DNA from: Xanthocytophaga agilis
GTDB lineage: Bacteria > Bacteroidota > Bacteroidia > Cytophagales > 172606-1
Assembly (NCBI RefSeq): GCF_030068605.1
Contig: NZ_JASJOU010000015.1
Coordinates: forward strand, 124,001-188,000
Length of the DNA stretch: 64,000 nt
Direction: 5' to 3'
The notes below the pieces were generated by a model that saw nothing but the letters and a program-made list of their open reading frames with translations, had not been told where the DNA came from and did not search any database. This document shows, piece after piece, positions 5,073 through 64,000 of the stretch. A program made the translations under genes and the position numbers. Each line of letters begins with the position of its first letter. Within the stretch, counting starts at the first letter, position 1.

Positions 5073-5215
5073 CTTTTAGCGGATTTGGTAAGTAAATAAA
5101 TACTATACAATCAGCTCAAAAAATACATCCGGGTAAATACCTGTTTCTACGTATTTTCCTACTCTTTATCAGGTATTATCAGGTTTTGAGTACCCACTCC
5201 GTTCTTCATCCCACT

Positions 5216-5281
5216 TACTCACCTTTTTACTCAATCATTAGTCTGCTTACTCACTAATCTACTCAATCACTGGTCTACTCA
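5216..5281. repeat. Short direct repeats (TACTCA) between relaxase and coupling-protein genes
   Basis: TACTCA occurs five times, at 5216, 5228, 5248, 5260 and 5276, with spacings of 12, 20, 12 and 16 bases, inside longer imperfect copies of CTACTCAATCA. The cluster sits in the 210-base gap after the relaxase stop codon. It may be a protein-binding site or simple repeat expansion; function is unknown. Confidence 0.5.
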
Positions 5282-5282
5282 A

Positions 5283-6854: not shown

Positions 6855-6927
6855 AGTATAAAGTCATAATTTACTATTTCACTTACATCGTATCCGGTTT
6901 TAGACTGTTCTCATCTGGCCTTGCACA

Positions 6928-7647
6928 TCAGGTTTCCTTTACATGGTTTTCTTCTATTTTGTTTTCTTCTATTTTGTTTCCTGCTTTTACCTGTATTTTA
7001 GCTAGCATCTGATTTACCTGAGTGTTGACAAAATCAGCATTGGCAGCTTTGATATTTTGTATTTCCTCTTCAGGCAAGTCCGAAATATGGAGCATGGTAG
7101 AAACCGAAACGGTTACCAGTCCCTGTATCTTATAGACAAGCAGATACAACTGCTTAAGCTGGTCTACCAGCTCACTAAGTGATTGTTGAGTTTGCTCAAG
7201 TGAGAACTCCATCTGTTCGATTGATCTTCCCTGTGAGAATACTTCCTTAAACATAGGCAGCATGTACTGCTGCTCCTGTTTTTGCAGAAACGAAAAAATA
7301 TGATTTCGTAACCGGACTACTTCTTTGGAAAGCTCTTCACTATGAATTTGTTCCGATGGGTTTAGTCCGTTTTTGACAAAGTAGAGCATTGCATTCTCGG
7401 CATACTCTTTCAGCGTTTTCATGCCCAGCTCGCGGGCATGTTGTTTACAGCGTTGGAGTACGGCCGCATTCACATTGACAGTTTTAAGAATGTATTCCCC
7501 TTGCTTTCTTTGAGCGAATTCTACAGACTGGCCGGGCTGTTTTTCTATATTACTGACCTCTGATTTTATCTGATTCATTCGCTTTCTTTTCTCACCTGTC
7601 CTTCTGGCCGGGCGCTTGGGAGTGATAGGTCTGTTGGAGTGTTTCAT
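6928..7647 (-). CDS. BfmA/BtgA-family mobilization accessory protein
   Basis: The 239-residue protein begins with a basic tail, followed by a ribbon-helix-helix-like segment (KTVNVNAAVLQRCKQHARELGMKTLKEYAENAMLYFVKNG, about residues 54-93) and then a long helical coiled region. This matches the DNA-binding accessory proteins BtgA/BfmA that assist the relaxase in Bacteroidetes mobilizable elements. It is the first gene of a leftward mob operon (accessory, relaxase, coupling protein). Three 20-bp repeats lie directly upstream of its start and are plausible binding sites. The end contains a small peptide repeat (KIEENKIEEN), matching a short DNA duplication at about 6951-6970. Confidence 0.8.
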   Translation of the reverse strand: MKHSNRPITPKRPARRTGEKRKRMNQIKSEVSNIEKQPGQSVEFAQRKQGEYILKTVNVNAAVLQRCKQHARELGMKTLKEYAENAMLYFVKNGLNPSEQIHSEELSKEVVRLRNHIFSFLQKQEQQYMLPMFKEVFSQGRSIEQMEFSLEQTQQSLSELVDQLKQLYLLVYKIQGLVTVSVSTMLHISDLPEEEIQNIKAANADFVNTQVNQMLAKIQVKAGNKIEENKIEENHVKET

Positions 7648-7667
7648 TTGCCTATTTCATTTAAGTT

Positions 7668-7806
7668 ATTTCCTATGTAATGGAGTTGTTTCCTGTGTAA
7701 TGGGGCTTTTTCCTATGTAAAAAACTGGTTTTCAAAAACTTATCTGCATATTAGTCCTTACCCAATAACTATGTTATTGTCTGCCAGTTTGTTAGCTTTA
7801 CTAACA
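7668..7806. promoter_or_regulatory. oriT / mob-operator candidate: three 20-bp direct repeats and a small hairpin
   Basis: TCCTATGTAA, TCCTGTGTAA and TCCTATGTAA recur at exact 20-base spacing (7671, 7691, 7711), 20-60 bases before the mobilization operon start. About 70 bases further is an inverted repeat TGTTAG-CTTTA-CTAACA (7790-7806), a size and shape typical near relaxase nick sites. Position and architecture fit an oriT with accessory-protein binding sites; the nick itself cannot be placed from sequence alone. Confidence 0.5.
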
Positions 7807-8029
7807 GCGGGCCTCTTGCTAAAACTGCGCGTAAGGTCACACAACATCGATACAACAAAAACATGCTCAATAACCGCAGACAATCGTTTACTGTATTTGT
7901 TTGTTTCATTTTTGTTGTGTGTTTGTTGTTTGAATGCATTTGCCGTTAACTGATTTGGTTTTTGTTGCATATTTGTTGTATTTTAGTTGGATAGCTATAA
8001 TTTTCATACTCTTAACTGATTCTATACAG

Positions 8030-8494
8030 ATGGACTCGATCACTAAAGATGATATCATTTCCGCATTTGCGCTCAAAAGAAAGGGTAAGCTCAATCTACT
8101 CTATCTGTATTTTAAGGATCAGTATTTTCACAAGGGATTATCTGCAGAGCTAATCGCGAGAAAGCTTTCTGAAGCACTGAATTTACCCATCACTCCTACC
8201 CATATCTATGACATTCACAGAAGATATGTTCCAGCTACTTCAGTTCAGGATAATAAGGCCCTGGAACTGAATCTTGATCAGCTCAAAGCGCTGATCCGGC
8301 AACAGGTGCTCTCTGAGCTCAGACAGGAGCAAATAAGCCAACAGCCCATCGACCTGATGAATGCTGACTCCTCTCCTGCCCTTTCCGATTCTGAAACTAC
8401 TACCGCACAAACTCACAAGCGATCCCTTACCTACGTTAATCAGGAAGATGAACCAAAAAAAAATCCGTATATCGATTTGATGAAAGGTTTATAA
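8030..8494 (+). CDS. Hypothetical plasmid protein
   Basis: The 154-residue protein is read from the ATG at 8030 (MDSITKDDII). The frame opens further upstream at 7934, but that segment is hydrophobic, low in quality and overlaps TTTGTTG repeats, so the inner start is preferred. The N-terminal 70 residues look helical and could be a small helix-turn-helix-like region (GLSAELIARKLSEALNLPITPTHIYDIHRRY). The C-terminus is polar and ends in PKKNPYIDLMKGL. It is divergent from the mobilization operon. I do not recognise the family; a plasmid regulatory role is only a guess. Confidence 0.55.
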   Translation: MDSITKDDIISAFALKRKGKLNLLYLYFKDQYFHKGLSAELIARKLSEALNLPITPTHIYDIHRRYVPATSVQDNKALELNLDQLKALIRQQVLSELRQEQISQQPIDLMNADSSPALSDSETTTAQTHKRSLTYVNQEDEPKKNPYIDLMKGL

Positions 8495-8595
8495 AAAGTA
8501 CTTATCCTCAGCCAGACTCTGTAGACATCCTTTACTGAGGCTACTCGCCTGCTTAAAACAATGTGTTAACGGCCTATCGCTTCTAAGTAACATTG

Positions 8596-12215: not shown

Positions 12216-12854
12216 TCATAGGGCTTTGAGCGCCTTAACCAGCATATGTATACTGTTGCTTTTGGGGGCATCATCTGCCCATGAGAGTATGACTTTTTTA
12301 TCAAGCTTCTTCAACTTGTCGTAATCTATCCGAAGATCATCCAGCAAAAAATCCATTACCTGCCTGGAGCTACGTAGAGAAATCCCTGATGTAGTAACGA
12401 TCTTATCACAAAGCGCCTTTTCGGGACTTGCCAGCAGCGCCACCTGGTTAGGTTGTAATTCAACACTTCGCAGCCCAAAGCTGTAATAGGGAGAAGGAAT
12501 ATGCTGATAACTAAATCTGCCTTTGGGTGTTTTATAGGTTTTTGAGGCTTTCAGTGTCACAGAGCTTATTTCATAGACACGTTCAGGAATTAGCTCCCAG
12601 TACGATAAAGCAGATTCGAGAGAAACATAACTGGGTCCGTACAGGTGATTAGCTATCAGGAAAGGGTGTGGTCCTGGCAGTTCTGCGTTTGCTCCAGGTA
12701 TGTAAAGGCCTTTCTTTAGCGAGATCAACAGGCCAGCTTTTATCAATTCACTGATCTTATCGTTTGGCCGCTTATACTCTTTAAGCATTTCCAGCATGAG
12801 CTGCCTGGAAAATGGAGCATTGGTAAACTGTCTGGCTTTTCTAGTAAAATCCAT
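12216..12854 (-). CDS. abiEi: AbiEi-family antitoxin/transcriptional repressor
   Basis: The 212-residue protein has an N-terminal winged-helix-like region (FSRQLMLEMLKEYKRPNDKISELIKAGLLISLKKGLYIP) and the typical AbiEi middle motif GPSYVSLESALSYWELIPERVYEISSVT, followed by SPEKALCDKIV. AbiEi antitoxins are type IV: they do not bind the toxin but neutralise it in trans and repress the operon through inverted repeats. A strong palindrome 22 bases upstream of the start fits this. The pair may serve as both addiction module and phage defence on this replicon. Confidence 0.87.
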   Translation of the reverse strand: MDFTRKARQFTNAPFSRQLMLEMLKEYKRPNDKISELIKAGLLISLKKGLYIPGANAELPGPHPFLIANHLYGPSYVSLESALSYWELIPERVYEISSVTLKASKTYKTPKGRFSYQHIPSPYYSFGLRSVELQPNQVALLASPEKALCDKIVTTSGISLRSSRQVMDFLLDDLRIDYDKLKKLDKKVILSWADDAPKSNSIHMLVKALKAL

Positions 12855-12875
12855 TATGTTAAATATTCTGGCAAT

Positions 12876-12894
12876 AATCGGAAATATTCCGATT
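12876..12894. promoter_or_regulatory. Palindromic operator of the abiE operon
   Basis: Perfect inverted repeat AATCGGAA-ATA-TTCCGATT just upstream of the abiEi start (12854). AAATATTC recurs 21 bases apart (12861 and 12882), so there may be a second weaker site. AbiEi proteins are known to repress their own promoter by binding such repeats. Confidence 0.65.
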
Positions 12895-13803
12895 TAAATC
12901 AATTTTTTTAACATGGCATATTGTTGTATTTTTAATTCATAGTATTGCTGGTTTGGTTTTGTGTATTGATTAGACTTATCTCCTGAATGGAAGTAAGGGC
13001 ATTGTGAAAGTGAACAGAATCCGATTATTTCTGAAAAGCGGCTGGTACTCCCATCAAACTAAAAAGTGATTCAAAGTACGGTTACTACTTAATGTTCACA
13101 TAGCTCCATGTGAACATAGCTCCGGCAGATGACATAAAATCAAAAAATATTTTTTCAAACTTGAAATCAACCCAAAAAATAGTGTCTATTTTCCCTGAGA
13201 CTGGTAGGGACTATTTCCAAAAAAGCTAAATGAAGCTCTCAAAGATGGCAGAGAGGAAAAAAAATTGTATCTTTTAGCAGAGAAATATCTTTTGCAAATA
13301 TTCAAAAAAGCCTTACCATTGGCAGATGCAGTAGAGAATCTTTCAGCAAAAGCCTATATCCTGCAGGGGCTGGCCCGAAATTACTTTTTAAAAAAGCAAC
13401 TTCTCTTCGCTGTTGCTACAGCTGAGCTTTTCATATAAAATTGTACTAATACAGATTGGGATCTTTCGTTAACCTATATTCTCAATCAGATAAGATAAAT
13501 CAGATAAGATAAATCAGATAAGATTTACGTATGCAAATTAAGCAGTGGAAGTTAAATAATTGACCCTAAACTTTTTGTATTATTGAAAATAGAATTATGT
13601 CAATGTCTGGTGAAGCAAATGTGGAAGGAAGAACTTCAATGTGGAATAACGCCAAAACTTATTAAACAATAAGTTAGATTAAAGACTAAAATATAGATTT
13701 TACTTTTTATTGTTTAATGGTGCATTCCAACAGGAATGTGGAGCTTTCTCTTACTTTCTAACAAATACTCCCCCTTTGTGCATAGTAAGCATAGATAAAA
13801 TTC
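12895..13803. other. Gene-poor stretch with 14-bp repeats and an inverted repeat
   Basis: No intact gene. Visible: AATCAGATAAGATA repeated three times at 14-base spacing (13484-13524), and an 11-bp inverted repeat TTAAACAATAA (13662-13672) / TTATTGTTTAA (13707-13717). A decayed open frame is listed separately. Confidence 0.5.
13229..13438 (+). pseudogene. Possible decayed fragment of a TPR-like protein
   Basis: A 70-codon open stretch without a start codon reads NEALKDGREEKKLYLLAEKYLL and continues through SAKAYILQGLARNYFLKKQ, with helix-pair spacing like a tetratricopeptide repeat. It is probably a remnant of a larger gene. Support is weak because it is short and unmatched. Confidence 0.25.
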
Positions 13804-13839
13804 ATAACAAAGGCAGATAAGTAAACCTGCCTTTGTTAT
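13804..13839. terminator. Hairpin downstream of the par operon
   Basis: Perfect 13-bp arms ATAACAAAGGCAG and CTGCCTTTGTTAT separated by 10 bases, 125 bases past the end of the parB-like gene. There is no strong T-tract, so it may be a terminator or an RNA-stabilising hairpin. Confidence 0.55.
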
Positions 13840-13963
13840 AAAGAGCTAATTTTTACTTTCAGAAAATCCTTTCCGGATAGTCTAGTTTTAATTACTCTGA
13901 TTGAATTACTCAAATGGTAGCATCTGCTAGTACATACTGAAAAATCAGCTCCAATGGTAGAAT

Positions 13964-14752
13964 TCAACCAAGATCGTATCCTATCTTTTTTGCATACATA
14001 GACAGAATTTTTTCCAGCCACTCATTTTTATCTCTGTATCGTTCCTGTAAAGATACTTCATCGATCATCTCGAGGTATTTGGCTTGAAGAGTTGTTGTAA
14101 ACTTAATCCTAGGTGCGTCTTCTTTCTTTCGTTTTGCCTTTCTATTTTTCTGATTTAATTTACTTGTATTCAGCATCTTACCACCTTTTCCATACGCATT
14201 ATACTCTTCATCCGTATAATATTCCTTACCCTCACTATACTCATTATCCGTATATACTTTACCAGTAGATGCAAATGCGTTTTCTTTCTCCACTCTTTCT
14301 TTCTCCACTCTTTCTTTCGCGCTTTCACCACTATCCGGCGACTGACTTAACTGACTAGTCACACTTTCCTCTGGTATTACTTTTTCAGGCTGCTCTCGCC
14401 TATCCTCTCTCTCAATCTTAGTAACAGCTATCATTGACTGCTCAACCGGCTTAGACTCTGATTGCTCTGCCTCTACCGGTTGCGAATCCCTTACCAGTTG
14501 AGCTTCTGCTATCAGTTCAGCTTGTGTTACCGATTCAACACCTGTTACCAGCTTAGCCTCCTTTACAAGCGTAGAAGCTTGTGAACTATCACTTTGAGTA
14601 CTATCTACCGTGCCAGAAATCTGTGTTTGTTCACTCTGCTCAGCAACCTCTGGCTCAGCATCACCCGGCTCAGCATCTAAGAGTGCGTGCAGATTTATCT
14701 CCTGCCGCATGATCGGTTTACGCGTGAGTGTTCGTTTGGAGGGATTGCTCAT
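13964..14752 (-). CDS. parB: ParB-like partition partner (small DNA-binding C-terminus)
   Basis: The 262-residue protein is encoded immediately after parA and overlaps it by 35 bases if the ATG at 14752 is used (an inner ATG at 14710 would avoid this). Residues 25-180 are acidic and low in complexity (repeats of EAEQSE and VEKERVEKE), likely disordered. The last 60 residues (PRIKFTTTLQAKYLEMIDEVSLQERYRDKNEWLEKILSMYAKKIG) look like a ribbon-helix-helix or small helical DNA-binding domain. There is no canonical ParB/Srx box, so it resembles the non-homologous centromere-binding proteins paired with ParA in Bacteroidetes plasmids. The symbol is by position. Confidence 0.65.
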   Translation of the reverse strand: MSNPSKRTLTRKPIMRQEINLHALLDAEPGDAEPEVAEQSEQTQISGTVDSTQSDSSQASTLVKEAKLVTGVESVTQAELIAEAQLVRDSQPVEAEQSESKPVEQSMIAVTKIEREDRREQPEKVIPEESVTSQLSQSPDSGESAKERVEKERVEKENAFASTGKVYTDNEYSEGKEYYTDEEYNAYGKGGKMLNTSKLNQKNRKAKRKKEDAPRIKFTTTLQAKYLEMIDEVSLQERYRDKNEWLEKILSMYAKKIGYDLG

Positions 14753-16662: not shown

Positions 16663-17856
16663 TCAGTTGCTTTTAACCAGGTAGAACTGGTTTCCATCAA
16701 GTACTTTAATAAATCCATTGCTAAAAAAGATTTCCTCCATATACTGCTCCAAATCATGGGCATACCCACGTCGTTTCTGGGCATCCTGATACATAAGCAG
16801 TACTTCCTGCTCTTTGTAGGTAATGGTTGCCGATGGGGAAGGAGAGGAGGATTGCCTGGAGTTCTTCTTTTTGGTGGCAGGTTCTACTTGTTCAGGTAGT
16901 GGCAGAGAAGGATTGACCGAATCCAGGTATGCCTGGTAGAGACTTTTATCCTTTAGGCGGTTGAGAATATATCCTCCATCGAGTTTTTTGTTTGACTTTT
17001 TGGACGAGTTTTCTGCAGCGGTATGTTTGAGTACGAATGCCACATATTCCTCTTCAACTTCATTGGCCGTGATTAGCTTTACCACCGTTGCCAGATTAAC
17101 ATTGTAGGATTTAAGCTGCTTTTCCAGGAGCGTAGGAAGGTTATAGCGATCTGAGGCTTTCTTAAGTGGTTTAAAGGTTAATTCAACGACAGTCTTACCC
17201 TTTTTATGTTCTTCAAATTCAAATGCGCTCAGCGTATTCTCAAGGGCTTTCTGATGGCGAAGCAGAAAATCGCGTTTAAAGACTTTATACTCTTCGTATT
17301 TTTCTTCCTTGCCAAAGAACATCCCACGTATGTTATCAAGTGTATCCCGAAAGTGAATACCGGCATCGATACAGGATTTGATCATGATATAAAAACGCAT
17401 GGCTCCTGAGGTTTTCAAAGAAAAAAGTTCAAAGAGCTCAACAGTGGTAAAATTCCCTTTCATCTGGATCAGATACGGTTTGATTTCTTCTGAGAACTTG
17501 GCCTCAATGAAATCATTCCCATCCAGATAGTCGATAAAGGAGATAGCCGAAATAAGACGAAACCCTTCCTTACCATTAACCAGACGATTGATTTCCACTG
17601 AGTCAAACTTGCGTTTAAGTTCACGGCACGCTTGTTTGATTCGTGGATAGCGCTCCCCGCTGTGGTAGGGGATAACATCTTTCACAGCAATGCGGCACAC
17701 AGGTAATTCTTCTATATTCCAGGGCAAATGGGCAAACATCAACAGAAAAATCTTCATTTCGGATTCTTCCAGATACGGAAAGCGCGCCCAGACAATGTTA
17801 TTGTGCATCCGGACTGCCGGATTTTTCTGCTCCTGAAAGATGGATAATTGTGCCAT
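16663..17856 (-). CDS. Rep_3/RepB-family plasmid replication initiator
   Basis: The 397-residue protein begins MAQLSIFQEQKNPAVRMHNNIVWARFPYLEESEMKIFLLMFAHL, the typical start of Rep_3 initiators, and continues with two winged-helix-like halves (RYPRIKQACRELKRKFDSVEI; FFGKEEKYEEYKVFKRDFLLRHQKALE). Such proteins bind iterons as monomers to open the origin and bind an inverted operator as dimers to repress themselves. Both site types are found directly upstream (operator 17887-17916, iterons 17931-18644). The C-terminal 120 residues are longer and more charged than in minimal Rep_3 proteins. This marks the window as part of a plasmid or chromid. Confidence 0.92.
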   Translation of the reverse strand: MAQLSIFQEQKNPAVRMHNNIVWARFPYLEESEMKIFLLMFAHLPWNIEELPVCRIAVKDVIPYHSGERYPRIKQACRELKRKFDSVEINRLVNGKEGFRLISAISFIDYLDGNDFIEAKFSEEIKPYLIQMKGNFTTVELFELFSLKTSGAMRFYIMIKSCIDAGIHFRDTLDNIRGMFFGKEEKYEEYKVFKRDFLLRHQKALENTLSAFEFEEHKKGKTVVELTFKPLKKASDRYNLPTLLEKQLKSYNVNLATVVKLITANEVEEEYVAFVLKHTAAENSSKKSNKKLDGGYILNRLKDKSLYQAYLDSVNPSLPLPEQVEPATKKKNSRQSSSPSPSATITYKEQEVLLMYQDAQKRRGYAHDLEQYMEEIFFSNGFIKVLDGNQFYLVKSN

Positions 17857-45868: not shown

Positions 45869-48800
45869 ATGGCTTATTATAAAGATGTGATTGATCAGAG
45901 TTCTCAAAAAGAATTCGATACACCACCTGTTTTAGATTACCAGCTCAGAAAACATTTTTTTTCATTACCTCCGTGGGCAGAAAATATAGTATCGGGGTTA
46001 AGCTCATCAGTCAATAAAGTTGGATTTATCCTCCAGTTAGGCTATTTTAAAGCAACTGGCCGCTTTTTTAAACCTATTACTTTTCGCAAAGGAGATATTA
46101 GTTTTATTACTCAACGTATCTTACAGGTAGGATCAGTCCAAATAAGAGACTATGCGGATGCTACCCGAAGGCGTCATCAGGAAGAGATTTTACGTCAGTG
46201 TCATGTTTTGCCTTTTACAGGAGAGGCTCGCCTGCTTTGTGAACAGGAGGCTCTGCAACTAGTCAGCCACTTACAAAAGCGACAACTAGTGTTTGCTGCC
46301 TTGGCTTCCTTTATCCGGGAACACCGCATTCAACTTCCTTCTTATACCACATTCGCTATTATCATTAATCAGGCATATAGCATCTTACGCAATAATCTTT
46401 TAACAGTAGTAGATCAACAATTAACGCCACAACTCAGGAAAAGTCTGGATGAATTACTAGAAAAACAAGCTGATTTACAACAAGAAACAACGAAAACGAG
46501 TCCTTACCGGTTAACCCGATTAAAAAATAATCCGGAACTAATTAGACAAAAAGCCGTTCGGGAAAACGTAGTCCATTTTCTCTATCTCAAAAAGCTTTAC
46601 CTGGAGATTTTACCTATCCTTAATCTGCTTACGATTGGAGATAATTTAGTAGAAGAGTATGCCCGCTATGTTAAAAGAAGCCATAGCTATCAAGTCAAAG
46701 AATGGAATGATAGATATCTGCTTTTAATCTGCTTTGTCAAATCGGAGTATTTTCATCTTACCGATCTTCTCACCGAGACGTTTCGGACTTTGGTAGAGCA
46801 GAATATCAATCAATGTGAAAAAGCCTATAAAGAAGAACGACTTCTAACCCATGAAAGAAGCCTGACTCAACTAGATACTATCCTGGCCAGTTACCTGAGC
46901 ACAGGAAAAAGTATTCAACTCTTACAGGATATTTTATTCAATTTTACCCTGACCGAAACGGAGAAACTAGCTCATTTTTCTCATATTTTACAAAACCCGG
47001 AAACAAGCTCTTTTCTTGCATCGCTCCCTCAGGTCCTAGAGCTTTATCAGCAGACCAAAGGCCAAATCAAAAATGAAGATTATTATCAGCATATCACTCA
47101 GGGATCACAACGTCTGCAGCTAAAAGTTTCTGACCTTGTCAGACACTTACAGTGGGAAGCAGCTCAGTCAGAAACCCATTTACTGGAGGCGGTTGAATTC
47201 TTTCAGAAAAGCAATGGACAAATCACGCCAAAAGCCCCAACCGGGTTTCTTAAATCATCCGAGCGGAAAGCAGTGATTGATCAGGAAGGGAAAATAAAAG
47301 TAAGCCTATACAAATCACTCTTATTTCGCCATCTGCATCGAGCACTTAGGGCCGGATTCATAACCCTTCCTCACTCTCATCTTCATAAATCAATTAACAA
47401 TTACTTGATTCCCTTTCAGGAGTGGCAATCAAATAAGCAAACCCTTCTGCAGCGGGCAAATCTAAGAACAATGGAGTGTTGGTCTACTGTAAAACAGGAT
47501 TTGCAAACTCAACTAGCGGCTCAGTATGAACATACCTTTTCCCGTATCAGCAATGGAGAGAATCTATGGGTTGTCAAACGAAAGGATGACACCTTACGTT
47601 TCCGTATTCCTACTCAAAAGCAGGAAAAAGAGGAAGTAGATCTATATCCCAAAGATCGGTTAATCTCTATTTACGAAGCGCTTGTCACCATTAATCGAAG
47701 CTGTCACTTCTTAAAAGATTTTCGCTCCTACAAGCCTGATTCTGAGAAGTCTACTTTAAATGAACGTTTGGTGATGGCTGCTATCATTGCCTATGGCTGC
47801 AATCTTTCTTTAAGTAGAATTGCAAAATCTTCCAAAGACATTAACCAGAGTAGTCTGGAAACCATGGTGAATACCTATTTTTTTAAGGAAAATCTGGTCA
47901 AAGCCAATGATCATGTCAGTGCATTAATCGAAAAGCTTGGCATCAGTCGCTTGTTTAGAAAGCAGTCCGATAAAGTGCATACTTCTAGTGATGGACAAAA
48001 ATACAGTGTGGCGCTGGATTCTATTCATGCCAATTATTCGTATAAATACTTTGGAAAAGAGAAAGGAGTAACGATCTATAGCTTTATTAATGAAAGTCAT
48101 AACATATTTTCATCAACTGTATTTTCTGCAAAAAATAAAGAGGCATGGTATATTTTTGATGGATTAATGCACAATGAGGTGGTACAATCCGATTTCCATT
48201 CTACCGATACCGATGGGGCAACTACTCCAATCTTTGCTCTTTCGTATTTGTTAGGAATCCTGTTTCAACCCCGTATAAAAGGTTTTAGCAAACTCAATTT
48301 TTATGGGCTGGAATCTCTATCTGTTGAGGATCACAGACAGTACCTGATTAAAGAAGGGATGGATATTAATCTGTCACTGATTGAGAAACAATGGGATGAA
48401 ATCTTACGACTGGCTGTGAGTATAAAACTAAAATACACTAAACCTTCACAGGTATTGAAAAGACTGACCTCCTCTGCCTTACAAAATCCTTTGTACAGTG
48501 CCTTAAACGAGTTAGGAAAGGTAATTCGTAGCCTATACCTGCTTGAGTATATGGATGATGAAAACCTTCGTCAGCGAGTAGATGGGCAATTAAATAAAAT
48601 TGAAAGCATACATGCCCTGGCTAGTGCGGTTAGTTATGGGACTAATGGTATTCTCCCACATGCCAGTTTACAGGACTTACAAATAGCCGACCAATGTAAA
48701 CGCTTAGTGATGAATGTAGTGATCTGTTGGAACTACCTGTATCTGACCAAACAGTTAATCAAAGCATCTTCACAAGAACGCAAGCAACTGGAAGAGGCTA

Positions 48801-48928
48801 TCGGTCATAGTTCAACCGTTGCCTGGAAGCACTTCAATTTTCAGGGTGAATTTAATTTTATAGAGACTATGCCACGAGAAGCCTTCGAAGAAGAACTCAG
48901 AAATTTACTAAGTTACAAGCCAGAATAA
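45869..48928 (+). CDS. tnpA: Tn3-family transposase
   Basis: The 1019-residue protein has an N-terminal DUF4158-like region (about 1-170), a long helical middle and the DDE catalytic core: first Asp in VALDSIHANYSYKYFG (about residue 718), second in FHSTDTDGATTPIFALSYLLGILFQPRIKGFSKLNFY (about 775-785), and the Glu expected in the segment near 840 (IEKQWDEILRLAVSI). It ends EEELRNLLSYKPE 94 bases before the right transposon tip. It is intact, so the element may still be mobile. No tnpR or tnpI gene is adjacent. Confidence 0.93.
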   Translation: MAYYKDVIDQSSQKEFDTPPVLDYQLRKHFFSLPPWAENIVSGLSSSVNKVGFILQLGYFKATGRFFKPITFRKGDISFITQRILQVGSVQIRDYADATRRRHQEEILRQCHVLPFTGEARLLCEQEALQLVSHLQKRQLVFAALASFIREHRIQLPSYTTFAIIINQAYSILRNNLLTVVDQQLTPQLRKSLDELLEKQADLQQETTKTSPYRLTRLKNNPELIRQKAVRENVVHFLYLKKLYLEILPILNLLTIGDNLVEEYARYVKRSHSYQVKEWNDRYLLLICFVKSEYFHLTDLLTETFRTLVEQNINQCEKAYKEERLLTHERSLTQLDTILASYLSTGKSIQLLQDILFNFTLTETEKLAHFSHILQNPETSSFLASLPQVLELYQQTKGQIKNEDYYQHITQGSQRLQLKVSDLVRHLQWEAAQSETHLLEAVEFFQKSNGQITPKAPTGFLKSSERKAVIDQEGKIKVSLYKSLLFRHLHRALRAGFITLPHSHLHKSINNYLIPFQEWQSNKQTLLQRANLRTMECWSTVKQDLQTQLAAQYEHTFSRISNGENLWVVKRKDDTLRFRIPTQKQEKEEVDLYPKDRLISIYEALVTINRSCHFLKDFRSYKPDSEKSTLNERLVMAAIIAYGCNLSLSRIAKSSKDINQSSLETMVNTYFFKENLVKANDHVSALIEKLGISRLFRKQSDKVHTSSDGQKYSVALDSIHANYSYKYFGKEKGVTIYSFINESHNIFSSTVFSAKNKEAWYIFDGLMHNEVVQSDFHSTDTDGATTPIFALSYLLGILFQPRIKGFSKLNFYGLESLSVEDHRQYLIKEGMDINLSLIEKQWDEILRLAVSIKLKYTKPSQVLKRLTSSALQNPLYSALNELGKVIRSLYLLEYMDDENLRQRVDGQLNKIESIHALASAVSYGTNGILPHASLQDLQIADQCKRLVMNVVICWNYLYLTKQLIKASSQERKQLEEAIGHSSTVAWKHFNFQGEFNFIETMPREAFEEELRNLLSYKPE

Positions 48929-50467: not shown

Positions 50468-51770
50468 TGAGGTACTCCCTATTCTTAGGACCAACAAGTA
50501 GTAATTCTTAGTTGAAAACGGATTCTATCTTCATTGGATAAAATCGCGAAGCGGGTGTGCTTCGATCAATGCCTTGATGGTATTTGTGATAATTGTATCT
50601 TTCAAAGAATCCTTCTAGTCCTTGATACAATTGCCAGCCATCTTCTGGAGGAGTCAGGTAAAGATACTCGTATTTTACCGTTCTCCATAACCGTTCAATG
50701 TAAACATTATCAATGGCTCAATCCCAGATCAAGCTTGGTTGAGGTTTTCCTTTCCCATCCATAGAAATTTGAATGCTTTCATTTTTCAGATACTCAACCC
50801 ATTTTTTGCAAGTAAATTGACTACCCTGGTCATCGGAGCGTCATGCTCCATTTGATAATTTGACATTTTCCATAACAGACAATAGCCATCTGTAAGGTTT
50901 CAATAACCCAATCGGCCTGCATACTATTGGAAATATCCCAACCAACCACAAAACGAGAATATACATCCAGAATTGCTACCAGATACATAAACCCCTTACT
51001 CATCGGCAGATACGTTATGTCTATTTGCCAAACCTGATTCTTTTCTGTTATGGACAGGTTCTTAAGTAAATACGGATAAATATATTCCGCTTTTCCTATT
51101 TTACTTAGATTAGGTTTAGGATAAATAGCCAAAATCCCCATTTCTCGTAAAAGCCTTCTTACTCGTTTATGATTAACTACATATCCTTCGGATCGCAGAT
51201 AATCCTGCATTTGCAAAACGCCCTCGGTTGGAAAGTTTAAATACCGCTCATCCAATAATCGCATTAACCTGCGACAGAGCCTGCATCTGGGTTCGCTAAA
51301 TTTTCGCTTGTTTCTGTCGCTGCCTGGTAGTATAGTCCACTTCGATGAAAATCCAGCCAAGAAGCTTCAAGAGTGCACATTGAGCCCGTATGCTAAGTTG
51401 ATTTTCTGGTTCTATCATAGCTTTACGCTCGATTAGTGAAGCTTTTTCAAGCTTTTTTTTAGAAACTCATTCTCCAGTTCCAATCTTCCAATTCGGGCAT
51501 ATAATGGATCGGGATCAACCTTTTCTTCCGAGTCCTGCTCTGACTCTTTCTCAAAAACAGAGGTGGCTTTTTCCAAAAACGCTTGCTTCCAACCTGCTAC
51601 GAGCGTGGCATTGGATAATTCTGCTAAAGTGTGTTTGTCTTTAATGGCTTCCAAGGCAACTTTTGCCTTAAAACTGGCGGTGTATTTTTTGCGTTTTCCT
51701 TTCATTTGATCACTAGTTTAGTCTTTATTTTTCATCTTAACTAGTGGCCCTAAATCTGGGGAGTAGCACA
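50468..51770 (-). mobile_element. Decayed IS3-family insertion sequence
   Basis: Matching ends: TGAGGTACTCCCTATTCTTA at 50468 and, on the other strand from 51770, TGTGCTACTCCCCAGATTTA. TG...CA tips are normal for IS3. No flanking duplication is visible (GGG against TAA). The length (~1.3 kb) is right, but the transposase is broken. Confidence 0.75.
50508..51705 (-). pseudogene. IS3-family transposase orfA/orfB, disrupted
   Basis: OrfA (51705-51433) starts MKGKRKKYTASFKAKVALEAI and continues KDKHTLAEL, with part of the HTH missing. OrfB (51360-50830) has the first catalytic Asp in QVWQIDITYLPMSKGF and D in ILDVYSRFVVGWDIS, then a frameshift after KCQIIKWSMTLR. The rest (SDDQGSQFTCKKWVEYL, DNVYIERLWRTVKYEYLYL, FERYNYHKYHQGI) lies in another frame with an extra stop. 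It is inactive. Confidence 0.8.
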
Positions 51771-55622: not shown

Positions 55623-56474
55623 ATGAGTGTGCTTGCACCAACACCTTTATCAAAAAACCTGAAACAGAAATACAGAACTGAACTTCAGTACAATTCAGAG
55701 AAAGTTTTTCGGGAAGAGTATATACGTACAACCAATCTGGAATACCAGATTATACTCAAGCATGGATATAACGGTGTAAAGATGTTTCTGCAGAAGATAC
55801 ATACGGATGATTATTTGCGAGAAGGAAATGGCGAGTATTTTTCGTGGGGAGAATTGCCTGCGGATTGTCCCTGGTATCAGTTTAATGACTTAGAGCTTTT
55901 ATCGTTTATTGACCGGAATTTTAGCAGTATTCATACTCGGATTCCTGATTTACTAGCCGCCATGAAGCAGCGGTGTATCTACATTGTTGCTGAAAAACTA
56001 AGGGATCAGTGGTATCTGCATTACCTCTTTACCCGTCAGTTATACGATGGTCGGGAGTATTATTTCATCTACACTGGTGGGCCACCAAACCCTGCTCCTA
56101 CTCCCAGCCAGGAGTTGCAAAAATATGACTGGTACATTCCGGCTGATCTGAGAACCTTATATGCCATACATGATGGATTTGGGGCTGTTTCTGATCGTTT
56201 TAGTATACTTAGCAGTAATAAACTGAAAGTGCTGGCTAGCTTAATGGACCCTATCTGTAAAGATCAGAATGATTGGCCGGAAAAATACTCGTTTGAAAAT
56301 CTAATGGTGTTTTTTCCTTATATGGATGGCAATAGCAGGTGTTTTTACTGGTGTGATAAAACAGTTGATGAAATAGGTACGATTTACTGGGATCATGAAA
56401 CCTGGGATATTACTTCTCCTATTCCACTTTTTGAATGTATGAATCGGGAGCTGGCTAAAATGGATGAAGAATAG
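55623..56474 (+). CDS. SUKH (SMI1/KNR4)-superfamily immunity-like protein
   Basis: The 283-residue protein has a charged N-terminal region followed by a SUKH-like part (about 165-275): YIPADLRTLYAIHDGFGAV, then SSNKLKVLASLMDPIC, FENLMVFFPYMDGNSRCFYWC and GTIYWDHETWDIT. The LP-x-DLR-x-LY-x-IHDGFG pattern and the late D-x-x-TW-D are characteristic. SUKH proteins often neutralise toxins of polymorphic or contact-dependent systems. No toxin gene is adjacent; the gene lies in a same-strand cluster of similar proteins. Confidence 0.7.
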   Translation: MSVLAPTPLSKNLKQKYRTELQYNSEKVFREEYIRTTNLEYQIILKHGYNGVKMFLQKIHTDDYLREGNGEYFSWGELPADCPWYQFNDLELLSFIDRNFSSIHTRIPDLLAAMKQRCIYIVAEKLRDQWYLHYLFTRQLYDGREYYFIYTGGPPNPAPTPSQELQKYDWYIPADLRTLYAIHDGFGAVSDRFSILSSNKLKVLASLMDPICKDQNDWPEKYSFENLMVFFPYMDGNSRCFYWCDKTVDEIGTIYWDHETWDITSPIPLFECMNRELAKMDEE

Positions 56475-56516: not shown

Positions 56517-57398
56517 ATGGAAATTACTCCTGTCACTGAACAGTTACATCTTCAAATACAACAAGCTGAAGCTGCACAGCAATATCTGTCTCTGACATCC
56601 TACATTACAGAACTTCAGAAACAACCTGTTCTTTCTCCAGAAGATGTGGTGAACCTGAATGCGCTACAACAGCAACTGGCATTTTCTCCCCCAGAACAAA
56701 GGTATATTTGGTTATATCTTGGAAAATACTTTACTGAAAAAGATAATGCGTATGCTGAAACACTTTTGAAGAAGTCTGCTGCTGCAACTATTCAGACATT
56801 TGGAGAAAAAAGTTTTGATACTGGCATTCGTATTATTGATCTGGCTGAGTTTTATGCAAAAGTGAACATGTTGCCAGAAGCGATACAAGCCTACCGGATG
56901 GGTATTTTCATTCTGCAGGATACCAATGCCAATGGAGTCAGTGATTACAGTATTCCTGCTCATAGCCTGCAACTGGCTCAGTTGTATCTGCAAACAGAGG
57001 ATTTTAAGAACTATGAGACAACCTTGAAAGCCATTATTCTATGGTTTAAACAGCTACTGGAAAAAGAACCAGGTACAGCCACTCTTATAAAAGAACGTAT
57101 GGCAGAAGCTCAACTCAAACTAGCGGATTACTATCTGTCACATACACAGGAAACCGAGCCTGCATTGGAACTTTACCGACACTTGAAAGCCGGGTATCTG
57201 GAACGGGAAGGAGACACTATTCTGCAACCCATGTGTGATAATCGGATGGGTATTATCTATGAAAAATCCCGGCAATGGGAGCAAGCTGTTGCCCACTACC
57301 AAACCGCCCGTCAGGCATTGATGCGGTTGTTTGGTGAATCACATGGCGATATTGCCTGGGTAGATGAACGCATTGCCACTTGTCGACAAAATCAATAA
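56517..57398 (+). CDS. TPR-containing protein
   Basis: The 293-residue helical protein has repeats resembling tetratricopeptides: AETLLKKSAAATIQTFGEKSFDTGIRIIDLAEFYAKVNMLPEAIQAYRMGI, HSLQLAQLYLQTEDFKNYETTLKAI and QWEQAVAHYQTARQALMRLFGESHGD. There is no signal peptide or enzymatic motif, so it is probably a cytoplasmic scaffold. The start is 42 bases after the SUKH gene, and the next gene begins seven bases after its stop codon, consistent with one operon. Confidence 0.65.
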   Translation: MEITPVTEQLHLQIQQAEAAQQYLSLTSYITELQKQPVLSPEDVVNLNALQQQLAFSPPEQRYIWLYLGKYFTEKDNAYAETLLKKSAAATIQTFGEKSFDTGIRIIDLAEFYAKVNMLPEAIQAYRMGIFILQDTNANGVSDYSIPAHSLQLAQLYLQTEDFKNYETTLKAIILWFKQLLEKEPGTATLIKERMAEAQLKLADYYLSHTQETEPALELYRHLKAGYLEREGDTILQPMCDNRMGIIYEKSRQWEQAVAHYQTARQALMRLFGESHGDIAWVDERIATCRQNQ

Positions 57399-58441: not shown

Positions 58442-58789
58442 ATGATGACTTTAGAAGATAAAGATAATTTATTTGCCGCTTTTGATATTGTCAAATGGGA
58501 AACTGAGCCTTACCAGGAAGGCACCATTTCCTTTTTTAATTCCCAGCATACACCTGTTGCCAAAGGAAAATACAGGAGGATTCTTGCCTTTTCTGCACCT
58601 AATGATATTACGCTGGTTCCAGGCATTGCCACTGCTGCCGCTATTTCCGGAATGCCTGACAAGTTAAATGGAGATGAAGCCCGTGCAGTTCATTTCGCTT
58701 CTGTTATCGCAGATCGTTTACAATTAGACTTATTGGTAAAAGTAGACAATGATTACCTGGGAGTTACAGAATTTACAGTACTCCAATAG
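58442..58789 (+). CDS. Hypothetical protein, paralog of the one at 59903
   Basis: The 115-residue protein: MMTLEDKDNLFAAFDIVKWETEPYQEGTISFFNSQHTPVAKGKY, then a Gly/Ala-rich middle and ASVIADRLQLDLLVKVDNDYLGVTEF. It shares start, W-x-P-x-x-G-x-ISF and the final FA-x-x-LQ-x-D-x-Y-x-GV-x-F pattern with the gene at 59903, so the two are duplicates separated by an LRR-like gene. No known family. Probably cytoplasmic. Confidence 0.6.
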   Translation: MMTLEDKDNLFAAFDIVKWETEPYQEGTISFFNSQHTPVAKGKYRRILAFSAPNDITLVPGIATAAAISGMPDKLNGDEARAVHFASVIADRLQLDLLVKVDNDYLGVTEFTVLQ

Positions 58790-58863: not shown

Positions 58864-59862
58864 ATGGATACATTAATCATTCGTTCATCCTCTCCCAATA
58901 TATGGGAACAAGTACAAACAGCACCTCGTGGAAGTCTTTATCTTCAGTGCGAAGATGCATCACATGATTTACTATCAGCCATTGTAACCTGTTTGACCGA
59001 TTTTGGTGCATCTGTTCAGAAGCTGGAACTTTCCCTGTATTTTCCTCAGGACCCTGTTTATCACGATATGGTGAATTTTGACTTTGTCACATCTTGTCCA
59101 AATCTTGAAGAACTCTCATTGAGATACTGTGAGGTTGGCGTGTCATTATTACAACATCCAAAACTAAAGCTGGAACTGGATAATTGCTGGTGGCGCACTG
59201 ACGATCTGGTTGGGATTGGGGTGAGTTCTATATCTGTATTAGAAGAAATGACTATTTATGATACCAATTGGTGTAATAGGGATGAAATAAGCATAGCAAA
59301 ATTAACCATTGGAGCAAAATCTTCTCTCAAGACTTTGAATTACTCACTGGATGAAGACTCCGTTGAGAACTATCCGGATGACATTGAAATAAATGGTTGT
59401 CCTTTACTTGAAAACATTCGTATTGATATTGATGCAACCTGGAGAGTAACACTAAAAGGCAATCTTCCAAAGCTTGTAAAGCATAGTTTTGGAAGCGGAC
59501 GTTTTGGTAATCATGAACTTGATTTTTCACAGATAGGTGATGGAAGTGCCAGTGATCTAATTCGTATTCGTAATGGAGAGGGTCCGCTTAAAGGGATGTT
59601 TTATGTATTTCTGGGTGAAAATGGCCGCTTCCAATTGGATAAAGCAAAGCATATCGTACAGGTGTATGGAGGTAGTTGGAAAGACACTATTAATGAACAG
59701 GTTACACACGCTGTACTATTAGGAGAAGCCAGTGATGAATGGGATTCGGAAGATCTCGTGAATGAAAATTTGCTGAAGCTGAGAGACTTGCTGGATGAAG
59801 GAAACGACATAGAGCTTATTATGGACAATGAGGCTGTCGAGCATTTTGAAGACTGGTATTAA
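58864..59862 (+). CDS. LRR-like protein with BRCT-like C-terminus
   Basis: The 332-residue protein has repeats like leucine-rich repeats in the first 230 residues (LEELSLRYCEVGVSLL, LKTLNYSLDEDSVENYPDDIEINGCPLLENIRIDIDATW). The last ~90 residues (GMFYVFLGENGRFQLDKAKHIVQVYGGSWKDTINEQVTHAVLLGEASDEWDSE, ending LLDEGNDIELIMDNEAVEHF) follow the BRCT pattern: a strand, a helix, GG-x-W, T-H-A-V, and the final D-E-x-x-F-like helix. BRCT domains bind phosphoproteins or DNA ends in repair and NAD-dependent ligases. An LRR-BRCT pairing is unusual. Its role is unknown. Confidence 0.6.
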   Translation: MDTLIIRSSSPNIWEQVQTAPRGSLYLQCEDASHDLLSAIVTCLTDFGASVQKLELSLYFPQDPVYHDMVNFDFVTSCPNLEELSLRYCEVGVSLLQHPKLKLELDNCWWRTDDLVGIGVSSISVLEEMTIYDTNWCNRDEISIAKLTIGAKSSLKTLNYSLDEDSVENYPDDIEINGCPLLENIRIDIDATWRVTLKGNLPKLVKHSFGSGRFGNHELDFSQIGDGSASDLIRIRNGEGPLKGMFYVFLGENGRFQLDKAKHIVQVYGGSWKDTINEQVTHAVLLGEASDEWDSEDLVNENLLKLRDLLDEGNDIELIMDNEAVEHFEDWY

Positions 59863-59902: not shown

Positions 59903-60367
59903 ATGAATATGATGACAATAGAAGATCGTAATGCCATGTTAGAGGTATTGAATATTTACCGCTGGAGTTTGATGCCCATTGAGAAAGGGATCATTTCATT
60001 CATTACCAAAGAGAATAAAAAAGTGGCAGAAGGGAACTACGAAATCATCCTTTCACATGGTCCCGAAGAAGAGTTTACAATGGCGTATGGCATTAGTATC
60101 TATACATCCATGAATGCGCCTGTTATTAAACCACTCCCTGATTGTCCTCTTGTGCACCCTGGTAGTCTGGCCGATGCTGAAGCATTTGCGTTTAAAGTGG
60201 GGGAACAGTTGCAGAAAGATTTTGTGCTGGATGTCATGCATGTGTATGTGGGTGTTTCAAATTTCCAGCTAACAGAGCCTGTTGATGTAGAAGCTTTAAA
60301 TATCAGTAAAAGTCTCAGTCAGATGCTCAGGGATCTTTCACGCATCAGAAAAGACCAACAGAGTTGA
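59903..60367 (+). CDS. Hypothetical protein, paralog of the one at 58442
   Basis: The 154-residue protein has the same core as the gene at 58442 (MMTIEDRNAMLEVLNIYRWSLMPIEKGIISFITKENKKVAEGNY, then DAEAFAFKVGEQLQKDFVLDVMHVYVGVSNF) with a 35-residue tail (ALNISKSLSQMLRDLSRIRKDQQS) that may be a helix. No known family. Together the two copies show expansion of the array. Confidence 0.6.
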   Translation: MNMMTIEDRNAMLEVLNIYRWSLMPIEKGIISFITKENKKVAEGNYEIILSHGPEEEFTMAYGISIYTSMNAPVIKPLPDCPLVHPGSLADAEAFAFKVGEQLQKDFVLDVMHVYVGVSNFQLTEPVDVEALNISKSLSQMLRDLSRIRKDQQS

Positions 60368-60453
60368 TTTGAAAATGCGCAACAGTAAAACTTTATTTGA
60401 AGCAAAGAATGAGTTATAAATTCAGAAAACATCTGTGTATAAGCGGGGGTGCT

Positions 60454-61026
60454 ATGGAAGCGCAGGAATGGATAAAGGCTTCTGTTCTGGAATCAAAAGA
60501 CAAAGCTGTGCTGAGCCGCTTTGTGAAGCGCTTTCCCGACCTGTCTTTTTATAAAGAAACCGAAGAGAGCTTAAATAATCTGGAAGCATCTCAAAAAATA
60601 AAGTTTCCCCAATGGTTGCGTAACCTGCTTACTACGGTTGGTTTTATTGCTCAGGATCAGCTTGAGTTCCGGGTTTCTGGTTTTGATGAGGACTATCGGT
60701 TTGGAAAGGATCGTTTGACTGGGTTTTGGTTTCTTCCCTGGTTTGTGTATGGAGAGGAACAGGAAAGAAACTGGCTGGAACTGCTTTCCTTTTACCCGAT
60801 CGCCCATGAAACAGACCGCCATACATCCCGGCTTATCGTCTCACTCAGGGAAGAAGATCAGGCCGTGTATGATTATTATTACATGGATATGATGGATGCA
60901 GAACTGGATGCAGAACCGATAGAGGATTGTATACAACTGGCATTTACTTCCTATATCTCCCTATTTGATCATGTTACAGAAGTGAAGCTGGAGGATGGGA
61001 CTATTATCATTGCCAGAGAGATATAA
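60454..61026 (+). CDS. SUKH (SMI1/KNR4)-like protein
   Basis: Read from MEAQEWIKASVLESKDKAVLSRF at 60454; an in-frame ATG at 60397 adds 19 residues. IKFPQWLRNLLTTVGFI matches the SUKH P-x-WL-x-x-LL-x-x-xGF start, followed by the GFWFLPWFVYGEE core and YYYMDMMDAELDAEP. SUKH folds serve as immunity proteins in many bacterial toxin systems. It has no adjacent toxin and lies between paralogous hypotheticals and the large propeller fusion. Confidence 0.55.
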   Translation: MEAQEWIKASVLESKDKAVLSRFVKRFPDLSFYKETEESLNNLEASQKIKFPQWLRNLLTTVGFIAQDQLEFRVSGFDEDYRFGKDRLTGFWFLPWFVYGEEQERNWLELLSFYPIAHETDRHTSRLIVSLREEDQAVYDYYYMDMMDAELDAEPIEDCIQLAFTSYISLFDHVTEVKLEDGTIIIAREI

Positions 61027-61156: not shown

Positions 61157-63577
61157 ATGTATTTTAAGAAACTGGCAGAACTAAACATAGGGCTCAAACG
61201 CTTATCGGATGCTATCCGGATAGACAATAAACTGTATCTGAGAGATGATGAGCAGGTAACCTGTATCATGGCGGAACCAGACTTTACCCATGTATGGACA
61301 AAAAAGCTGGATTTAGGGCGTCCAAGTGGTAACCATAATTTCTTTCAGTGCCTCAGAGGTTCGTCACAGGCAATTGTAACCACCAAGGAAAAGGAAGATG
61401 TGAGCTTATTGGCACTGGACCCTACAGATGGGCGGTTGTTATGGGAAGTGTCCATCTCTCCCAAAAAACTGGCCGACAAGGGAGCTCCGGTGGTATGGGA
61501 AAACAGGGTATGCATTGCTATTCAACAAAGCAAATATGTTCGGTTTGTTGTCTATCATATCCTCACTGGTGAACGGGTTGCAGAGTTGAACCTACCTGAA
61601 TCGTCTGTTTCTGCTTTTGGAATATGGGCATTGCAATGTGGTTCCTGGGTTTATGGAAAAGAATGGGGGTATGAAAAAAGTACCTGCCTGTTACGATTCA
61701 ATCTTGCTGATGAAAGTCCGGTGCTGGAGCAGGTATTCACGCTGCCTTTGTCTGATCTTCAAACAAATGGAACAGATCTCTACGCCTTCGCTGCTGATCC
61801 TTTCCGGATTGTATGGTATGATGGGCAGACAGCTTTATTCAAGGGAGAATGCATACCGGATAACTTTACATATGATACTATAGTACCGTATTCCCCTCAT
61901 TCTCAGTTTGTATTGGTGTATTCTGAAGAAAAGCGGGCCATATGTTGTCTAAACCTACAGGAAGGCACCCTACACTGGCGCAAAGATTTTGAAGAAGACT
62001 GGGATGCAATATACTCAGGTAAGGGTACACTCAACGGATGGTATCTCACTATCCAATACAAAGGAACAGAGTTTAAACGAGCCTGCTTTTTTTGTCATTT
62101 GAATAGTGGAGAACTGGAAGAAGTACCTGAGGTCATACACTCTAGAAGCAGACTTGAACCTTTGGTTTTGACAAATGATTACTACCGCGATTACGATTTT
62201 TATGTGCCAGTGGCAGAAAAGCCCACAACTGACGACCCTATCCGTTTGCTGAAATGGGAAGATTTTGGTAAAGAGGCTGAAGAGATTGTTCTCCAAAAGA
62301 CACCCTTGCAAATACAGATTGAAAACATTCAGCAGATGCTGGCAACAGTCCATAGTGAGGCTGACTATGAGGCTATCTTTGTGGCTGTTGAAACATTGTT
62401 TGGGGTACCACTTAATCCTGAAGTCAAAGAATTTATCCGGGTTAATGAGTCTGTGGATGGGTACTATCGTATAGATTCTTTCTCCAGATCGTTGGGGTCT
62501 GCTCGGACTTGTGGCGAACTTTTCGGGGAAGATATTCCATTTGCTGACAGCATGTTTCCAGCAATATTAATTGGAGGCACTCCATATGGAGATTACTTCT
62601 GGTTGGATCTGGAATGGGGTAGTGTCATTTCACTGAATCATGATGACACTTTTACTGAAGTAGCGCTCGATATTATAGAAGATAACAAGCCTACCACAGC
62701 GTCTGGCTTTACCTTAGACTTTTCCATGAAAGGAAACGGGTTCTGGCTTTCTGAGTTGCTGGCGTTTACTACGGCTGCCCGACATATGAAACCTTACCCA
62801 TCTGCCGGATCTGATAAAGAAAAAGAACCATTTGAATTGGTAAAATGGGTCTGGAAAGCAAAGCGTTGGCCAATAAATACCTTACCCAACCATCGTTTTG
62901 CCCAAGCAGAGATGTTTCTTTGGGCTGTAACCCAGGATGCATTAGATAGCAACGATTGTAAAGAGAGAGTACTCGAGCTATACAATGCTGACTGTGAGGC
63001 CTTACTCACATGGCTAAATCAAGAGAATGAAAGCCTTGATCCTACACAGGCAATTACCACAGCACCTTTAAATTTAACAGACAAGTTTGTGGTTTGTGAT
63101 CCTCAACGAACGGAGGACTTGTATTATCCCTGGAATAACACCAGTATGCCTATCACTCCTGGTCAGTATGCTGCCACTATTTACAAGCAGAATGGCCTGG
63201 CTCATTCCATTGCCATCTGGTTTGAAAAAGGGAAAATTGCTTCATTGAAGGAGTATCGTAATTTCTCCTCCATTGGCTTTAATGGATTCAACTTTTTTAC
63301 AAAATATGTGGGCATCTTCGACAAAACGCTGGTTACTAACAGATTGCTGACCACATTGCCTGCAGAGAAATGGTCTTTGTTAGAAGAAGATACTACTGAT
63401 TGGATACGTTATGATGTGCCACAGGAAAACACAGATGAAGTACCTAAAAATATGCTTGTTTTTAAAGTAAGTCCGGAAACAGGCTTCTGTGATTCCTACT
63501 GGGGTTATGGAGAAGATAGGAATCTGCTTTGTTATGTGCTCAACTTCAGAAAGGTACAACCAGAGCCGCAAAAGTAA
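61157..63577 (+). CDS. Large fusion: PQQ-like beta-propeller, SUKH-like domain, DUF4241-like end
   Basis: The 806-residue protein has blade-like repeats in residues 1-370 (ALDPTDGRLLWEVSISPKKLADKGAPVVWENRVCIAIQ, CCLNLQEGTLHWRKDFEEDWDAIYSGKG), typical of PQQ/WD-like propellers. Residues about 375-560 resemble SUKH (ETLFGVPLNPEVKEFIRVNESVDGYY, GDYFWLDLEWGSVISLNHDD). Residues about 640-800 recall DUF4241 (MPITPGQYAATIYKQNGLAHSIAIWFEKGKIASLKEY, VSPETGFCDSYWGYGEDRNLLCYVL). There is no signal peptide, so it is cytoplasmic. The combination is unfamiliar to me; domain boundaries are approximate. Confidence 0.65.
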   Translation: MYFKKLAELNIGLKRLSDAIRIDNKLYLRDDEQVTCIMAEPDFTHVWTKKLDLGRPSGNHNFFQCLRGSSQAIVTTKEKEDVSLLALDPTDGRLLWEVSISPKKLADKGAPVVWENRVCIAIQQSKYVRFVVYHILTGERVAELNLPESSVSAFGIWALQCGSWVYGKEWGYEKSTCLLRFNLADESPVLEQVFTLPLSDLQTNGTDLYAFAADPFRIVWYDGQTALFKGECIPDNFTYDTIVPYSPHSQFVLVYSEEKRAICCLNLQEGTLHWRKDFEEDWDAIYSGKGTLNGWYLTIQYKGTEFKRACFFCHLNSGELEEVPEVIHSRSRLEPLVLTNDYYRDYDFYVPVAEKPTTDDPIRLLKWEDFGKEAEEIVLQKTPLQIQIENIQQMLATVHSEADYEAIFVAVETLFGVPLNPEVKEFIRVNESVDGYYRIDSFSRSLGSARTCGELFGEDIPFADSMFPAILIGGTPYGDYFWLDLEWGSVISLNHDDTFTEVALDIIEDNKPTTASGFTLDFSMKGNGFWLSELLAFTTAARHMKPYPSAGSDKEKEPFELVKWVWKAKRWPINTLPNHRFAQAEMFLWAVTQDALDSNDCKERVLELYNADCEALLTWLNQENESLDPTQAITTAPLNLTDKFVVCDPQRTEDLYYPWNNTSMPITPGQYAATIYKQNGLAHSIAIWFEKGKIASLKEYRNFSSIGFNGFNFFTKYVGIFDKTLVTNRLLTTLPAEKWSLLEEDTTDWIRYDVPQENTDEVPKNMLVFKVSPETGFCDSYWGYGEDRNLLCYVLNFRKVQPEPQK

Positions 63578-63624: not shown

Positions 63625-64000
63625 ATGAAAACCTGTTTTGTTGCCCTTATATTCCTGAATAGTCATTTTCAGGAAAGCTTTATCCGGGATGCAATTCGGA
63701 AAACAGAAGCGACTTTTCCAATGGCACATCCCTTTAAGCGGGAAGTGTATACCAAAGTGGCTCTGTCCGCAACTATTTCGGTGGTGTTTTATGAGGTAGA
63801 GAAAACCCATGGACAGCAATCCAGCTGTGATGGGGCTATTGAATTTTTCAGAGAAGACAACTTTCTTTCCATTTTACAAAAAAGTGCCAGTGAGAAAAGT
63901 GCTTCGTTTGCCTTTTATGCCTGTATGTATGATCCAGAGGATAACTTTCTCATCACGAGTAAATATACGGAACAAGGTTTTGATGAAAGGCAGAACATCC
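63625..64000 (+). CDS. Hypothetical protein (5' part, cut by window edge)
   Basis: An open frame of 125 codons starts MKTCFVALIFLNSHFQESFI and runs to the right edge without a stop. No family was recognised; the stretch PFKREVYTKVALSATISVVFYEVEKTHGQQSSCDG looks like a soluble alpha/beta protein. Its start is 47 bases after the propeller fusion, continuing the same-strand array. A short signal-like start is possible but weak. Confidence 0.55.
   Translation, partial: MKTCFVALIFLNSHFQESFIRDAIRKTEATFPMAHPFKREVYTKVALSATISVVFYEVEKTHGQQSSCDGAIEFFREDNFLSILQKSASEKSASFAFYACMYDPEDNFLITSKYTEQGFDERQNI

Follow-up and report, generated by a model that had tools for sequence, protein, structure and literature searches.

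A putative polyimmunity-type protein joining a beta-propeller, a SUKH-like segment and a divergent DUF4241-like segment in a gene array of Xanthocytophaga agilis

What role might be served by a single protein chain that joins a beta-propeller to a SUKH-like segment and a relative of DUF4241? The question is raised by a gene of Xanthocytophaga agilis in a 64,000-nucleotide stretch of DNA (hereafter the window, C15:124001-188000), for which an earlier note, written without tools, had proposed an 806-residue cytoplasmic protein of this three-part architecture with a possible role in multivalent immunity, in which the propeller might be the sensor or scaffold. The open reading frame runs exactly as claimed, with an ATG start and no internal stops across its 806 codons (Table 1), and occurs once in the 9.77-Mb genome of 66 contigs. 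Since hydropathy shows neither a signal peptide nor a membrane segment (maximum 19-residue Kyte-Doolittle mean 1.04), a cytoplasmic location is a reasonable reading of this acidic protein (118 D/E vs 78 K/R). The proposed architecture also holds, with sequence evidence behind all three segments; to it we add a predicted helical stretch of about 80 residues between the SUKH and DUF4241 parts, missing from the earlier note, which gave no family match in Pfam or PHROG. NCBIfam, PHROG and PADLOC returned nothing useful for the protein. Because SUKH and DUF4241 had been named beforehand, the assignments below involved no search over families.

Table 1 Features of the 806-residue protein and neighboring genes (window coordinates).
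Feature	Position	Strand	Evidence or remark
Full open reading frame, 806 aa	61157-63577	+	propeller, SUKH-like segment, helical stretch and divergent DUF4241-like domain
BamB/PQQ-type beta-propeller, residues 1-330, about seven blades	61157-62146	+	PF13360, Foldseek, blade spacing by eye
SUKH-1-like domain, residues 383-530 (Pfam match 408-505)	62303-62746	+	PF09346 below cut-off
Mostly helical stretch, residues 546-628	62792-63040	+	AF2 secondary structure; no family match
Divergent DUF4241-like domain, residues 629-800	63041-63556	+	own profile, phmmer, alignment; AF2 core strands pLDDT 70-87
Best-conserved DUF4241 block, residues 765-797 (NMLVFKVSPETGFCDSYWGYGEDRNLLCYVLNF), GxGDGxY loop degenerated	63449-63547	+	phmmer alignment
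SUKH-like protein	55623-56474	+	PF09346 E 0.019; own SUKH profile 17.4 bits, E 6.6e-4
TPR protein	56517-57398	+	PF13424 E 8.8e-9
Weakly SUKH-like upstream neighbor, 130 bp before the gene	60397-61026	+	PF09346 E 0.012, 16.7 bits; own SUKH profile 11.2 bits
Downstream gene, 191 aa in total, runs beyond the window, 47 bp past the stop	63625-64000	+	no family

The N-terminal segment, searched as a fragment, matched PQQ_2 (PF13360) over residues 24-150 with 35.3 bits (E 1.2e-8), above the cut-off of 27.6. By eye, seven blade-like segments spanning residues 34-326 (for example LLALDPTDGRLLWE and CCLNLQEGTLHWRK) start at residues 34, 82, 130, 177, 217, 262 and 311, a spacing of 40-49, and AF2 predicts strands here with pLDDT 70-86. 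A Foldseek search with the full-length AF2 model, which is only partly confident, returned 383 PDB chains with E no greater than 1e-3; propellers headed the list, and BamB (8orr) was the best match (E 8.6e-8); in VIA-align, model residues 6-330 aligned to propellers with Z up to 9.8. The claim of a propeller is thus well founded, and the protein has the fold and blade motif of BamB and PQQ_2 propellers in common with them. We rejected an identity as the BAM lipoprotein BamB itself: NF008351 gave 13.7 bits vs 423, and, unlike BamB, the protein lacks a lipoprotein signal by hydropathy, and membership in the BAM complex is not indicated.

The middle segment is matched by SUKH-1/SMI1_KNR4 (PF09346) over residues 408-505 with 23.4 bits (E 9.5e-5; 23.2 bits in a whole-genome search), and the alignment covers model positions 7-118 of 125. 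Reversed and seven shuffled sequences gave no match. Since the score lies 2 bits below the gathering cut-off of 25.4, we call the segment SUKH-like, a label at which the earlier claim of a SUKH domain can stand; another 15 SUKH-1 matches in the same genome exceed the cut-off. Our own SUKH profile, built from 22 domains, scored the segment at the level of shuffled sequence, so the assignment rests on the Pfam model, and the blindness of our profile to residues 383-530 is a true weakness of it. AF2 predicts the first helices (residues 383-431) with pLDDT 77-87 and most of the remainder below 50, confidence being low for much of 432-630. The segment shares the profile match and the predicted first helices with SUKH-1 domains and differs from them in its sub-threshold score and in its placement between a propeller and a DUF4241-like domain.

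The C-terminus appears from sequence comparison to be a divergent relative, rather than a canonical member, of DUF4241. Our own profile (about 70 domains, drawn from 80 GTDB loci and the order) gave 17.6 bits (E 2.1e-4), where the highest-scoring of 1000 shuffles reached 5.8 bits and the highest-scoring unrelated open reading frame 6.2 bits. When the C-terminus was searched as a single sequence against 2027 open reading frames with phmmer, a Thermoactinomyces DUF4241 protein ranked first (E 7.6e-6) and DUF4241 proteins filled about 55 further ranks before any other frame. Blocks co-linear with DUF4241 include FVVCDP (CDP in the family), PGQY (PGxY) and a C-terminal block containing YWG, and a gapless 29-residue stretch, FKVSPETGFCDSYWGYGEDRNLLCYVLNF, aligns to FxSGxGDGxYPxYWGxDxxGxIxxLVIDF of the family. 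The earlier naming of DUF4241 is borne out by these searches, but PF14025, the Pfam model for the family, did not report the C-terminus at E <= 1 when this genome was searched, and the signature is mostly lost: five of the 11 residues invariant among 48 members are kept and six are gone, including most of GxGDGxY. A direct hhalign comparison to a DUF4241 profile of 14 sequences gave no significant result, and the larger profile and phmmer were used instead. A degenerate DUF4241 copy inside a fusion can therefore escape Pfam.

Little is recorded of DUF4241 in general. We found no literature naming it, and its profile matched none of the solved structures by sequence. A canonical member (loci L044-L123) gave a confident AF2 model (pLDDT 91) whose fold search yielded no significant PDB match; the top seven rows were UTRA/DasR-type effector-binding domains and DUF98 (Z 4.9-4.0), and this weak resemblance of the predicted model to chorismate-lyase-like folds and DUF98 is only a lead towards ligand binding. 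Canonical members that we checked are, unlike the fusion described here, mostly stand-alone. Their direct neighbors elsewhere (about 34 loci) include no SUKH, Imm or Rhs gene among the most frequent 25 of 111 families listed, and the families listed are mostly housekeeping or of unknown function. DUF4241 is hence no established immunity domain. Lipoprotein or Tat-like signals can be seen by eye in several members.

Taken as a whole, the full-length AF2 model is poor (pLDDT 55), its input alignment having covered the C-terminus only; SUKH paralogues were left out of this alignment because MAFFT placed them on the DUF4241 part. Relatives were sought with the full length and with segments, and the 395 Bacteroidota genomes with two segments. 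A homologue of the same architecture was found neither in 98 relatives nor in those 395 genomes, a GTDB peptide scan, plasmids or viral contigs, so a conserved interface cannot be shown. One weak match to the C-terminus, the short secreted protein L024 (E 0.002), was all that turned up, and we judged it a chance hit.

The gene lies in an array of co-oriented genes that extends from 55.6 kb to about 20 kb past the window, many of them tens of bases apart (74, 40, 29, 130 and 47 bp for the gaps near the gene itself). In addition to the neighbors in Table 1, the array includes a Tdi1_C domain (PF08906, E 1.1e-4, slightly under cut-off), LRR, TPR, HEAT, WD40-like and, by eye, NTF2-like proteins, and further downstream, past two opposite-strand genes, Imm5 (PF14423, E 2.5e-18). 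No toxin gene was recognized among the array genes scanned. A 12-kb stretch of the locus is absent from one same-genus genome of ~100% completeness, which fits expectation for accessory immunity islands. The contig encodes a Rep3 replication initiator (window 16663-17856, minus strand, E 7e-20), within a stretch that shares 93% identity with part of G001:C13, and is probably a plasmid or megaplasmid. Given this initiator and the missing 12-kb stretch, the locus is accessory and probably plasmid-borne. Just upstream of the array lie a Tn3-type transposase (window 45869-48928, plus strand) and an IS3-type integrase fragment (window 50830-51360, minus strand).

These features recall two described systems. 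In the available text of a published survey (Zhang et al. 2012, PMC3482391), heterogeneous polyimmunity loci are toxin-free arrays in which immunity genes of diverse kinds lie on the same strand with small gaps between them; Imm5, LRR, HEAT and SUKH are immunity classes and TPR is a fusion partner; and among polyimmunity proteins SUKH has at least eight other immunity domains as fusion partners. The array matches that description of polyimmunity loci in that no toxin was recognized among the genes scanned, and likewise in its same-strand arrangement, small gaps and LRR, HEAT, TPR and Imm5 content, with two opposite-strand genes interrupting it before Imm5, and the protein, like those described, is a fusion that includes SUKH. 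The same text, as far as available, names neither propeller nor DUF4241-like domains among fusion partners, places beta-propellers only in toxin delivery proteins, rather than in an immunity-type fusion as here, and suggests that polyimmunity proteins may be missing from bacteria with extended polyimmunity loci; the fused protein sits inside just such an array and would contradict this mutual exclusion. The rAID arrays of Bacteroidales are a second likeness, being sets of co-oriented immunity genes in Bacteroidota that include divergent SUKH proteins, and their SUKH orphan immunity proteins have been shown by experiment to bind and neutralize T6SS effectors (PMC12247911). Unlike rAID arrays, the array here has no tyrosine recombinase seen beside it, the Tn3 transposase and IS3-type fragment lying about 10 kb upstream, and the gene exceeds the rAID gene size of 100-300 codons.

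We therefore read the protein, at a probability of about one half, as a cytoplasmic polyimmunity-type protein whose gene belongs to an orphan-immunity array of an accessory replicon, and infer binding and neutralization of a toxin, the domain responsible and any coverage of more than one toxin. A toxin domain entering the cytoplasm from a rival would be captured by the SUKH-like domain and have its active site masked, with surfaces of the propeller or the DUF4241-like domain possibly also taking part in binding; the propeller would serve as a non-enzymatic scaffold or binding platform. Loss of most of the signature loop suggests that the DUF4241-like domain may keep a binding role rather than an ancestral activity. 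The immunity role proposed earlier is in keeping with the context (Imm5, Tdi1_C-like, SUKH-like and LRR/TPR/HEAT proteins in a strain-specific array with no toxin recognized) and with the precedent for SUKH fusions in the available text of the survey (PMC3482391). Also in favor of a polyimmunity role are the rAID precedent, the Rhs proteins of the genome and the acidic composition of the protein. Its multivalent character is unsupported because DUF4241 has no immunity record in the literature, structures or listed neighbors, leaving SUKH as the one part with such a record. Polyimmunity proteins carry at least two immunity domains per chain, and in this protein the SUKH-like domain counts as one, with neither the propeller nor DUF4241 an established immunity domain. 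Also counted against polyimmunity are the sub-threshold SUKH score, the blindness of our SUKH profile, the occurrence of DUF4241 elsewhere outside immunity neighborhoods, the failure to find a homologue of the same architecture in the sets searched and the survey's remark on mutual exclusion.

Several of these observations would also suit a scaffold for regulation or interactions inside the cell that plays no part against toxins; its three parts would bind a ligand or proteins of the cell, and its LRR, TPR, HEAT and WD40 neighbors would simply be interaction proteins. Generic repeat proteins do form the majority of array members, the most frequent families beside DUF4241 elsewhere are without immunity genes, and the faint UTRA/DasR and DUF98 resemblance of the canonical model would be at home in a ligand-binding protein. 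Set against these are Imm5 and the Tdi1-type domain in the array, the strain-specific presence of the locus and the absence of a conserved partner or regulator gene, and we consider such a scaffold possible though somewhat unlikely. Should it prove a mere scaffold, the protein would represent ordinary domain shuffling.

Divergence of the two smaller domains could instead mark decay, the protein having arisen by recent fusion on a mobile replicon, lost its SUKH and DUF4241 motifs and retained little function. The degenerate loop with its five retained invariant positions, the sub-threshold SUKH score and the failure to find relatives in any set searched are all compatible with this; yet the 806 codons remain open and free of stops and frameshifts, GC is 0.41-0.44 in every segment and near that of neighboring genes, and immunity proteins usually diverge fast (PMC12247911), such that we regard decay as improbable. 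The same divergence might mean that the propeller alone is real, with a middle part that is not SUKH and a C-terminus unrelated to DUF4241. The silence of PF14025, the PF09346 score, low AF2 confidence over much of 432-630 and the hhalign result lean that way, against which stand the margin of the DUF4241 profile over 1000 shuffles, the ranking of DUF4241 proteins first by phmmer, the SUKH match with silent controls and the naming of both families in advance by a reader without tools; this explanation, already disfavored, appears very unlikely.

Propeller and DUF4241-like domains as partner types of polyimmunity proteins appear to be new here, neither being described as such in the available text of the survey (PMC3482391). 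If the polyimmunity role is true, it would widen the set of domains in such proteins and give the widespread DUF4241 family its first lead on function. A bolder version, which we think unlikely, holds that DUF4241 is an unrecognized toxin- or ligand-binding fold recruited to immunity, with the propeller forming the core of an antitoxin that has several surfaces; if true, this would be an undescribed modular immunity architecture in which several unrelated binding faces are displayed by a single protein.

Other genes of the contig deserve mention. Rhs proteins are encoded in the genome, one of them on the same contig, where a 1907-residue open frame with RHS repeats (G000:C15:57845-57952, minus strand, locus L137) is a possible polymorphic toxin. 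Seven LRR paralogues with a common N-terminal EKENIIRLLLSGQ... (L026, C15:204000-222000, at 4336-8500 and 12374-14546) are a local gene-family expansion adjoining the array. An LRR protein at L025:18244-19998 and onwards has a BRCT-like segment (19.1 bits, slightly below cut-off), which the C-terminus of the protein at window 58864-59862 resembles by eye. Two small proteins at window 58442-58789 and 59903-60367 (MMTLEDKDNLFAAFDI and MNMMTIEDRNAMLEVLNI), without a family, are apparent divergent paralogues and possible immunity genes. Within the array, L025:4963-5487 (plus strand) encodes a small secreted protein with tandem FSDGSQW-like repeats.
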